Shown: piece after piece, positions 36,030-59,000 of the stretch
Position numbering within the stretch: the first letter of the stretch is position 1
How the letters are laid out: each line of letters begins with the position of its first letter
Origin: Cloeon dipterum
Lineage: Eukaryota > Arthropoda > Insecta > Ephemeroptera > Baetidae
Direction: 5' to 3'
NCBI RefSeq assembly: GCF_949628265.1
Contig: NC_088789.1
Span: forward strand, 15,058,886 to 15,122,885
Length of the DNA stretch: 64,000 nt
Notes under the pieces: generated by a model
The model's database searches: none
Told to the model about the DNA's origin: nothing
The model's input: the letters and a program-made list of their open reading frames with translations, nothing else
Made by a program: the position numbers and the translations under genes

Positions 36030-39000
36030 ATGGATGAATCCAGTTGTAAAAGACAGGCGACAAGGTAAACAAGACGCCGATTCTATTTACGTCGTCTATT
36101 CATTAGCACAAAGTCTATATACGCACGTAGACATGAATGTATTCATTACCTACCAAGTGCTCAACGCCGAGCCCTTAACACAACACACCTCTCTGATTAC
36201 ATTATTAATTTATTACTTGTTGTTTTGTTAAATAATCTCAGACTTTGTCCCATGTTTGCAGGGTGTTCAAGAAGAGCTCGCCCAACAGCAAGGTAAAAAA
36301 TCTGTTGCAAGGTTTTTGCAAAATCCTGTCATTGCTAACAAGTGGGAGTAATAGTGGCGCAGTCACGAGTACCGTCGCTTATTCCCACTGCTAACCAATA
36401 AACAAATAGAGCGGTGATACCAAACATGGCAAAGATCAGCACTACTTGTCCATTGACATCCGCTCGTCAGTCAAATTCTGAGCTGGGGGCTTCGACTGAC
36501 GTTAGGGCCGCCCCCACTTGTTTATTTAGATGCACGCCGCTAGCTATGAAATTTTTCCTCTTTAACTTTGAAACTATTTGTGGATTTTTTAAACTCCCGT
36601 TGATGCCGAAAACACGTTACAAGTTGATAACTTTGGACACGTCAGATAATATACACTTGCGGTTCGGAATGGCTAAAGGAAGTGCGTTTCCTTTAAATAT
36701 ATTCAAGGAAAACTGAGTACTAGATAAAATGAAAAAAATATACGAAACAACAATTTAAACACAGGATTGATACTGCAAAGTCGTGGAAAATCCTTGTTAC
36801 CAAAGCATGAACTCAGTTGAAGCCAAAATTGACCAAAGTAGAACTATAAATTTTTTTAAAAAGTGGCTGAAAAGTTAGCATGCTTTTCAAATGGTGAGGA
36901 CTGTCTCCTAACTTTATAATATCTTATTTTATGTCACAACAAGAAGTTTCCCTAAAAGACACAAATCTCGACGAAAGAAATGGAAATCTGCCAAGAAAAT
37001 GTGGTCAAGCGCTGTAAATTTTGGGGAAATTTTTTAATTTACACTGTAGAAAGGTCCTTTTTTATTACTGCAAATTCCAGAACAAATTGTTCATCAATCA
37101 ACTGCTTATTGCATCCAATAATTCAAACAATTTTCAACTGTCGCCCTTTATGGATCCACTTCAAATTTAGTTAACAATTATTTTCTTCTTTCAATGAACT
37201 AAAAAGATAGCTTACTTATTGGTAACTCAATCGGTTGAATAACAACTAACAAGCTAGAAGTTAAGCTTTTGAAATAGAACTAGAGATAAAAAAAATTTCT
37301 CAACGTTCGAAAAATAATGATCTTGTTACATGACACTTCATTAAAATACTTTCCTCTCGCGTTTCAGATTACTGTATATCTTGGGAAAAGAGATTTTGTG
37401 GACCACATCACACATGTGGATCCAATAGGTCAGACCCAATCAATGAGTTTTATCGATCAAAATCGAAATAAGAAAAATTGCAGATGGAGTGGTACTTATA
37501 GACCCTGATTATGTGAAAGACCGCAAAGTCTTCGGCCACGTGCTGGCCGCATTCAGATATGGTCGCGAGGATTTGGATGTGCTTGGCCTAACCTTCCGCA
37601 AGGACCTCTACTTGGCTTCTGAGCAGATTTTTCCTGTGCTAGAGGCGACAAGCAAACATCCACTCACACGCCTTCAGGTTTGAAATTCCTGCCGACTTGA
37701 AGGTGAAGTTTTGACTCTCCACTTGGTGGGTTTGCAGGAGAGGTTGATAAAGAAGCTGGGACCCAATGCTTACCCTTTCTACTTTGAACTGCCTCCACAC
37801 TGTCCTGCCTCAGTCACTCTCCAGCCTGCGCCAGGGGACACTGGGAAACCATGCGGCGTTGATTACGAGCTCAAAGCTTTTGTTGGCGAGACCCAGGATG
37901 ACAAGCCACATAAAAGGTAATAATACCGCTGGCGGAATCACCAAATTTGTTTTTCATGATTTTTATACTCTGCACTCAGGAATTCAGTTCGTTTGGCGAT
38001 AAGAAAAATAATGTACGCACCGAGCAAACAAGGGGAACAACCCTCAGTGGAAGTCAGTAAGGATTTTATGATGAGTCCCAACAAGTTGCACCTAGAAGCG
38101 TCTCTTGACAAAGAGGTGAAGTCTTGAATTGAGATTGTGTAAATAATTTTTACTTTGCGCTATATATATTTGCAACAGTTGTATCATCACGGGGAAGACA
38201 TCGCAGTGAATGTGCATATTGCGAACAACAGTAACAGATCAGTGAAGAGAATTAAAGTTTCGGGTAATTAGTCCCCAAGAGTGTCATCGATCACTTTGTA
38301 TATTGTATTTGTTTTGCAGTGCGCCAGTTTGCAGACATTTGTTTGTTTTCAACGGCACAATACAAGTGTACAGTGGCTGAAACCGAGAGCGAGTAAGTTA
38401 ACGCATTCTAACGTATATTAGTTTATTAAACTTGACTTAATTTTTTATTAATCTGCACTTCTCCAACTTCAAGTAATCTTGGTACGCGTGAATAGTTTGA
38501 GTTGTAACTTCTGCTCTCATTTGTTGTATAAATTTATAATTTTTCATCCCTGTCGTAATTGGCAGGTTTTTCAATACTTATTAAAATATATTGCTTATTT
38601 TGGAGGTCAAAACGATCATGGGCATGGTTTTTTGACGTTTTAACCCTCCGTGGGCTCCATCATCGTCCAGTACGGGAGCCCATAAATCGAAGCTTAGTTG
38701 ACGCCGCAGTTTGCTATTGCAGAGAAGGGTGTCCGGTTAGTCCAGGTTTCACGCTGTCGAAGGTATTTTACCTAACGCCGCTGCTGGAAAAGAACAAGGA
38801 CAAGCGAGGGTTGGCGTTAGACGGCCAGCTGAAACACGAGGACACAAACCTCGCATCGTCGACAATGTGAGTTGCGAGCTGGGACTAATAAGTATGGTGG
38901 TCGGTTGCAGGGAGGGGTGTCCGGTGGGGCCTGGGTTTACCCTGAGCAAGGTTTTCACCCTCACGCCCTTGCTGGCCAACAATAAAGACAAGTGGGGATT

Positions 39001-40302
39001 GGCTCTTGACGGCCAGCTGAAGCACGAGGACACAAACTTGGCCTCGAGCACTCTGTAAGTCGCTAGTAGATGGATTCTATGGATGGCTCGAATTTCCATG
39101 TAGTTTCATTTTAACGTCGACAGCTGAGTGTGCAAAGTGGCTAAAAATGTCTTAACCGTCTGAAATCGAGCATTAAATTCTACACTCCCGACGCGCATAA
39201 TATGACGCTTTTTGAAGTTGCTCTCCTTTTGTTGAGAGAGGACAAACGCTGCTGCCTTTATACATATTACCATGTTTGTCAATGGGCCGTGTCTGTTGTT
39301 TGTGCTTGCTGAGGCTGTTCAGAACAACCGCTTGACCCCCTGCCTGCTACCAATCATCATCCTTCTACGTCTGTTGCATTCAATTCTTCTATGTTTTTTG
39401 ATCTTTTTTTACACTCCCTTGAGCTGTAATACTGCCCTTTACAGAGGCAAAATTTAAGCTTTTGGCAGTGAGCAATTCAATCAATCATGTTTGTGTATAG
39501 TCTTTCATCTTTTTATCAACTTTGCAATACAGTGAAAGCTGTTGAGCTTTACACCCACTAAATTTCACGCTTTATTTTAAGCTGAAATAATCAATCACTA
39601 CTGTAAAAACTTAACCTTTGTCCACGGTGTAAAACTAAATACAATTGTGGCAAATATTCAAATGTACAGTGGCGCACCTTTTTGGACTTAAATTATTTTT
39701 CATAACATGTTCCTAACCTTTTTTCTCAGCATCAGTGACACGTCTCAACGAGAAAACCTTGGAATTATTGTTCAGTATAAGGTTAAAGTGAAGCTTTGTC
39801 TTGGAGCACTTGGAGGGTGAGTAGAGAGAGCATTGCAAAAATAATATGCACCATTACATTGGTCGTTATCCTCGTGGCCACATGTATTCATTTAATATTT
39901 CTTTACTGAAAATACGGATATCAGAATATAATCATATTTTAATTTAAAACAATATGATTGTAAAATAGGTGTTATATCTCATTTTATGTGGCGAACAATT
40001 TCAGGGACCTTGTGGCTGAGCTTCCATTTATTCTGATGCATCCAAAACCGGAGGAGGATCCTCTGCCGGTTCTCAGTTCAAGTCCGTCCCATGCTGCTGA
40101 CGCTTCTGATGGACAAAAATCTGATATCGCCGTGGACAACCTCATCCAGCTTGATGCGTGAGTATTTTTAACAAATAAAATATCGCGAATGGGCAATAAC
40201 TCTTGAAATAGTAGCGAAGGCGTTCGGCCCGATCCTGATGATGACATAATCTTTGAGGACTTTGCCCGACTGAGGTTAAAAGGAGGAGAAACTGAGGCTT
40301 AA
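36030..40302 (+). CDS. krz: Beta-arrestin (kurtz)
   Basis: Non-visual arrestin: binds phosphorylated active GPCRs, stops G-protein coupling and links them to clathrin and AP2. Twelve positions: 36030-36064, 36262-36292, 37368-37428, 37484-37677, 37738-37916, 37980-38115, 38179-38263, 38320-38392, one of 38723-38866 or 38911-39054, 39730-39816, 40005-40157, 40212-40302; 422 residues in one frame. Landmarks: [57 protein letters not shown]; the lariat loop [19 protein letters not shown] with the polar-core Asp; a LIQLD clathrin box; and [16 protein letters not shown], the AP2 beta-adaptin motif. The last two mark it as beta-arrestin rather than visual arrestin. Poly(A) candidate AATAAA at 40552-40557. 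The ninth exon is duplicated. Confidence 0.96.
38651..38682 (+). promoter_or_regulatory. Intronic hairpin upstream of kurtz exon 9a
   Basis: Perfect 8-bp inverted repeat TGGGCTCC (38651-38658) and GGAGCCCA (38675-38682) with a 16-nt loop, 40 nt before the exon 9a acceptor. A GC-rich stem in an otherwise AT-rich intron could influence the choice between exons 9a and 9b. Confidence 0.35.
38723..38866 (+). CDS. krz: kurtz exon 9a (first of two alternative copies)
   Basis: 144 nt, entry phase 2 and exit phase 2, acceptor attgcag, donor AT/gtgagt. Encodes [35 protein letters not shown] and the lariat-loop end. It keeps the KRG found in vertebrate beta-arrestins. Differs from exon 9b at about five or six residues. 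Confidence 0.85.
38911..39054 (+). CDS. krz: kurtz exon 9b (second of two alternative copies)
   Basis: 144 nt, same phases, acceptor gttgcag, donor CT/gtaagt. Encodes [35 protein letters not shown] and the lariat loop. The KTFT/LLANN side resembles vertebrate TITPLLSDN, but KWG replaces KRG. Only 44 nt separate it from exon 9a. Confidence 0.88.

Positions 40303-43685: not shown

Positions 43686-59000
<15,315 letters not shown>

Follow-up and report, generated by a model that had tools for sequence, protein, structure and literature searches.

Beta-arrestins switch off many cell-surface receptors and are central to GPCR pharmacology, where each gene is usually assumed to provide one fixed receptor interface. 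In Drosophila, Kurtz is described as the single fly beta-arrestin, and no splice pair is mentioned for it in the available sections of that source (PMC9624432). Mutually exclusive duplicated exons are an already known kind of arrangement. The closest described cases are alpha-tropomyosin and exons 4a/4b of OGDH, presented in the available part of PMC7969005 as homologous adjacent exons of one phase, with a short intervening intron whose donor-to-branch distance is below a proposed limit. For vertebrates, this limit is placed near 50 nt in the accessible text of PMC7969005 and PMC5740500.

Exons 9a and 9b of a beta-arrestin gene of the mayfly Cloeon dipterum share these properties, taking the branch point from a candidate motif. 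They lie in a 64,000-nt stretch of DNA, hereafter called the window. We consider it likely that this one gene yields two proteins, with Arg when exon 9a is used and Trp when exon 9b is, and that an old duplication, a 44-nt intron that bars joining of the copies, and the swap of a receptor-side residue together account for the arrangement.

The exon pair of the beta-arrestin gene

The window belongs to an assembly of 190 Mb in 10 contigs. The beta-arrestin coding span, from ATG to stop (stop included), occupies 36030..40302 on the + strand, as obtained from a spliced alignment of protein P0002 and hand reading. The exons upstream of 9a are located at 36030-36064, 36262-36292, 37368-37428, 37484-37677, 37738-37916, 37980-38115, 38179-38263 and 38320-38392, and those downstream of 9b at 39730-39816, 40005-40157 and 40212-40302, all on the + strand; the first two exons were placed by eye, the others through the P0002-to-window alignment. 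Across the 380 residues compared, the product spliced with exon 9a has 100% identity with P0002 and P0003, the Cloeon dipterum proteins named 'arrestin red cell isoform X1' and 'X3', respectively. Its assignment as a non-visual beta-arrestin is based on PF00339 and PF02752, which are listed for P0002, and on neighbors annotated as beta-arrestin/kurtz. The tail of the translation reads NLIQLD and DFARLR, which we take to be putative clathrin and AP2 binding motifs, respectively.

P0002 and P0003 both carry 9a; a single serine at the last intron (window 40158-40214) distinguishes them. This intron ends in AATAG then TAG, so that a 3-nt alternative acceptor would account for the difference between X1 and X3. 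The arrestin gene is adjoined by Rab6 (window about 29-32 kb, + strand) and Cullin-4 (24.7-28.4 kb, - strand) genes. About 15 kb downstream, on the same (+) strand, lies a GRK2-type kinase (window about 55845-57914); receptor kinases of this type are partner enzymes of arrestins.

Exon 9a, the Arg form, is found at 38723..38866 (+ strand) and is included in NCBI isoforms X1 and X3, while exon 9b, the Trp form, is found at 38911..39054 (+ strand) and is present in P0001, a protein from another Cloeon assembly that holds both copies. Each has 144 nt and encodes 47 residues, and sequence reading places between them an intron of 44 nt (38867..38910, + strand, GTGAGT...TTGCAG). The exons have the same phase: each opens on the third base of a codon, closes on the first two bases of another, and has AG/GT borders. 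Adjacent homologous exons of equal length and phase, the pattern by which mutually exclusive pairs are recognized, are hence what the locus contains, as the first-pass annotation had proposed when it described tandem duplicated exons in a beta-arrestin separated by a 44-nt intron. The 47-residue pieces themselves gave no match in a Pfam scan.

The copies agree at 105 of 144 nucleotides (73%) and at 42 of 47 residues. Third codon positions differ in 25 of the 47 codons, and 22 of the 42 shared residues are encoded by different codons, with dN of 0.15, dS of 1.58 and dN/dS near 0.1. Given that most residues are shared yet about half of them are written differently, 9a and 9b constitute an old pair kept by selection, and at the level of sequence both the duplication and the purifying selection on both copies are clear.

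The repeat finder reported one two-copy family of 162 nt at the exon pair. An ungapped 144-nt scan of both strands of the window found 9b (105 matches) as the sole place with at least 60 matches to 9a, and a search of the whole assembly with the segment gave, among the best candidates scored, four matches: 9a, 9b and two other arrestin genes (the C1 and C3 loci). The latter match the segment at 68-70% identity, read RRG at the key site and, by our own reading of their sequences, are presumably visual-type. Since matches in the window and in the assembly are restricted to these, the pair is neither a chance resemblance nor a duplicated piece of assembly. That 9b is a dead second copy or an assembly duplicate is accordingly a vanishingly improbable reading: the copies retain only 73% nucleotide identity, their dN/dS is low, their splice sites are intact, and the same pair occurs in other species, which contradicts its loss in all relatives. 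No evidence for a dead copy or an assembly duplicate was found, and an artefact of assembly was rejected on the grounds of divergence, splice sites and presence in relatives.

Distribution and use of the two copies

Three protein searches were performed and the best 120 matches of each (of 3,607, 4,270 and 3,893) were retained, yielding 239 distinct proteins: 162 hits with a species name, from 99 species, and 77 hits with lgn/jgi/ena identifiers only. At the position of residue 285 of beta-arrestin-1, these 239 matches comprise 72 proteins with Arg only, 137 with Trp only, 27 Arg-Trp tandems and 3 Arg-Cys tandems. In terms of the 99 named species, the matches listed give 22 with separate Arg (R) and Trp (W) models, five with R, W and tandem models, and 24 with a tandem and at most one single form, so that at least 51 of 99 have both copies among the matches listed. 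A further 28 are W only and 20 R only, a status that is weak because it is drawn from the best 120 matches per search.

Insects with both copies include a mayfly, termite, grasshopper, cricket, bugs, lice, beetles, sawflies, ants, bees, wasps, caddisfly, sand fly, mosquito and fungus gnat, and crustaceans with both include shrimp, crab, isopod and the ostracod Darwinula (Oligostraca by taxonomy). Among the matches listed, Arg only was found in the myriapod Strigamia, the chelicerates Centruroides and Nymphon, and three Daphnia species, and Trp only in three moths and butterflies. The upstream copy carries Arg in all 30 tandem proteins, and the downstream copy Trp in 27 and Cys in three. A search for the duplication in related insects had been suggested at the outset; judged from these proteins, the pair is not a mayfly peculiarity and occurs across Pancrustacea, beyond the insects and more widely than first claimed, with a fixed order of Arg and Trp.

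The Cys-bearing downstream copies belong to two lice species (P0015, P0024, P0025). A large set of environmental arrestins (P0173-P0238), perhaps from copepods, reads EDGFPLGSGSTLSKVYELKP...KWG and has the Trp form only.

The closest segment from another species is of the same copy type for 60 of 60 copies, a result that is partly trivial between close relatives. When the closest segment was taken from another order, the same copy was retrieved in 28 of 34 cases; five of the rest tie, and 9a of Formica is nearer a 9b. The copy tree was built from 41 columns and 39 rows: 17 of the 30 tandem proteins contributed both of their copies, and five single proteins one row each. It is poorly resolved, with good support for 6 of 31 inner branches. 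Copy labels require two changes on this tree (shuffled mean 11.2; 0 of 500 shuffles as low). A clean two-sided split of the copies (one change) was obtained in 0% of 200 bootstrap trees: surrounded by b copies, 9a of Cloeon groups with a copies of crustaceans, and the b copies of lice fall among a copies. Most simply, these segments would reflect a single duplication close to the root of Pancrustacea, after which the upstream copy kept the ancestral Arg and Trp arose in the downstream copy, followed by later losses, although a tree of 41 columns falls short of proof of a single duplication.

Regarding use, R and W models of one species were paired, and the 29 pairs chosen (27 species) were compared outside the segment. 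No difference was found in 28 of 29, as alternative splicing would predict, the exception being a second Zootermopsis pair, which differs by an alternative start. Since 28 of 29 pairs are identical elsewhere, the R and W models correspond to one gene, which bears on whether the copies are ALTERNATIVES. Among the matches listed, R-only plus W-only gene models occur in 27 of the 99 named species. The 77 lgn/jgi/ena-only hits, which are not independent (many W sequences are near-identical), comprise 66 W, 11 R and no tandem; each is a contig of 1.4-5.6 kb with a whole intronless protein, which suggests these hits are transcripts.

A different reading is that 9a and 9b are ordinary cassettes, of which one, the other or both are included, so that an arrestin with 48 extra residues would be a real third isoform. 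The reading frame is kept with 9a, 9b, both or neither, hence a frameshift cannot enforce the choice, and every combination is open to a cassette. In-frame tandem proteins account for 30 of the 162 named hits and 29 of the 99 named species among the matches listed, some being NCBI models. One example is Lygus P0017, which is a UniRef entry lacking a genome contig; another is Cloeon P0001, predicted with the 44-nt intron spliced out. However, tandem proteins are absent from all 77 lgn/jgi/ena-only hits, even though the tandem queries P0005 and P0023 would favor such hits, and we regard free inclusion of both copies as rather unlikely. AlphaFold models built with the same 43 rows have a mean pLDDT of 40.7 for the tandem form and 57.0 for the single form, both being poor models. 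Of the initial claim of mutually exclusive use, the alternative use of the copies is supported by gene models, and its strictness is weakened by the tandem models in 29 of 99 species. No 9b-only model of Cloeon or Neocloeon was present among the matches listed, where the single Cloeon models are all 9a-only; that mayflies use 9b alone is therefore something we infer.

Intron length and the exchanged residue

Alternative use of one copy at a time could be imposed in Cloeon by the intron between them: once both exons are recognized, 44 nt would be too short to splice. In comparison, 15 other placed introns (ten in the beta-arrestin gene, one in Rab6, two in Cullin-4 and two in the GRK2-type gene) range from 53 to 1,075 nt. 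Donor-acceptor pairs across 290 kb were also used to estimate intron lengths; as they presented no clear excess over the control, they were dropped in favor of introns placed by protein homology. The best-scoring candidate branch motif is CTAAT at 38885..38889 (+ strand), whose fourth base, A at 38888, is intron nucleotide 22, rather than about 19 nt from the 5' splice site as first stated. Of 9 other short introns, 3 likewise have their best-scoring motif no more than 24 nt from the donor, so the motif is not decisive on its own and total length carries more weight. Since splicing here does use introns of 53-63 nt, the limit in insects is lower than in vertebrates, and 44 nt would probably be below the insect limit as well. 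Exclusion by crowding in Cloeon is thus a plausible reading of the sequence: the original proposal of steric enforcement is retained in terms of length (44 nt against at least 53 in 15 introns) and gains little from the branch point taken alone.

Regulators or RNA pairing might instead make an exclusive choice, which we consider unlikely, if somewhat less so than the cassette reading. Insect introns whose donor lies nearer to the branch point than the vertebrate limit of roughly 50 nt are spliced, six of 54-63 nt in the beta-arrestin gene among them. In favor of pairing, nucleotides 38574-38583, in the intron before 9a, form a 10-nt perfect complement with 38886-38895, over the branch motif; yet by our estimate a complement of this length is expected about once by chance in 1337 nt, and inverted repeats presented nothing above the chance estimate.

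In the alignment to PDB beta-arrestin-1 chains, query positions 5-47 correspond to chain residues 262-304, and the Arg/Trp residue is 285, encoded by CGA at 38805..38807 in 9a and by TGG at 38993..38995 in 9b (both + strand). The KRG/KWG change, singled out beforehand as notable, is thereby located at R285. In Cloeon, 9a and 9b do not differ at residues 286-304, a stretch that we take to include H295 and the polar-core positions. In the sections available, R285 (or R292 of visual arrestin) is a receptor contact in five complexes, all but the paper's own lower-resolution one, and is called always in contact with the receptor (PMC10866553). Likewise in the accessible text, changing R285 to alanine almost abolishes glucagon-receptor binding, the residue forming a pi-cation pair with receptor W425 (PMC10447241), and ligand-dependent states are described at R285, a site linked to ERK (PMC7519161). 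No test of R285W was found in the literature searched.

The first-pass annotation had envisaged receptor- or phosphate-sensing variants. With no change between the copies over residues 286-304, a difference in phosphate sensing is not supported in Cloeon and was set aside there, and a receptor-contact switch is favored by the sequences. Among tandem proteins, copy b has Asp at H295 in 5 of 30 (decapods, an isopod and two bees) and copy a in 0 of 30; the same residue occurs in 4 of 137 Trp-only proteins. In such lineages, a lariat-loop change or an effect on phosphate sensing is possible. The proteins concerned are P0023, P0029, P0058, P0060, P0113 and P0168-P0171, from decapods, mantis shrimp, an isopod and two bees.

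The isoforms could also be alternative yet functionally equal, the pair being kept for dosage or regulation. The identity of 42 of 47 residues in Cloeon is compatible with this, as are the named species that have W only (28) or R only (20) among the matches listed. However, 27 of 30 tandem proteins, from very distant taxa, have the fixed combination of Arg and Trp, and residue 285 matters for receptor binding in beta-arrestin-1, according to the available part of PMC10447241; we assign functional equality a low probability. Under the favored receptor-contact switch, the swap would involve one receptor-facing residue and a few residues of the preceding strand, leaving the stretch behind unchanged, and the isoforms should differ in the receptors, or receptor poses, that they hold.

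Comparison with known systems

Unlike alpha-tropomyosin and OGDH 4a/4b, as described in the accessible sections of PMC7969005, the present pair belongs to another gene, its branch point is predicted, the whole intron has 44 nt, and the limit, derived from vertebrates, may not be that of insects. The C1 and C3 arrestins of the Cloeon genome also differ from the beta-arrestin pair, being separate genes with one segment copy each. A description of the arrestin pair was not found among the matches listed, by title and abstract and mostly from open-access literature, on arrestin with exclusive, duplicated or alternative exons; both isoforms are present as database models, without comment found.

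With Arg and Trp exchanged naturally at R285, and the exchange deeply conserved, an experiment on the role of this contact already exists. Exon choice could let a cell make either of two arrestins, an extra layer in insect and crustacean neuromodulation that Drosophila work would miss if the fly has the Trp form only, as is presumed of the Kurtz sequence. ARRB1 and ARRB2, the vertebrate beta-arrestins 1 and 2, are of the same family and have the same lariat-loop segment with Arg at 285, and their known splice variants are, we assume, near the C terminus and not in that segment; they are, however, two genes. As a tentative proposal, which we hold to be somewhat less probable than its converse, a splice switch older than the insects may give Pancrustacea two beta-arrestins from one gene, by an Arg/Trp swap at a residue that touches the receptor in every published pose examined, and tissue-specific splicing may thereby retune which GPCRs are silenced, as vertebrates do with two genes.
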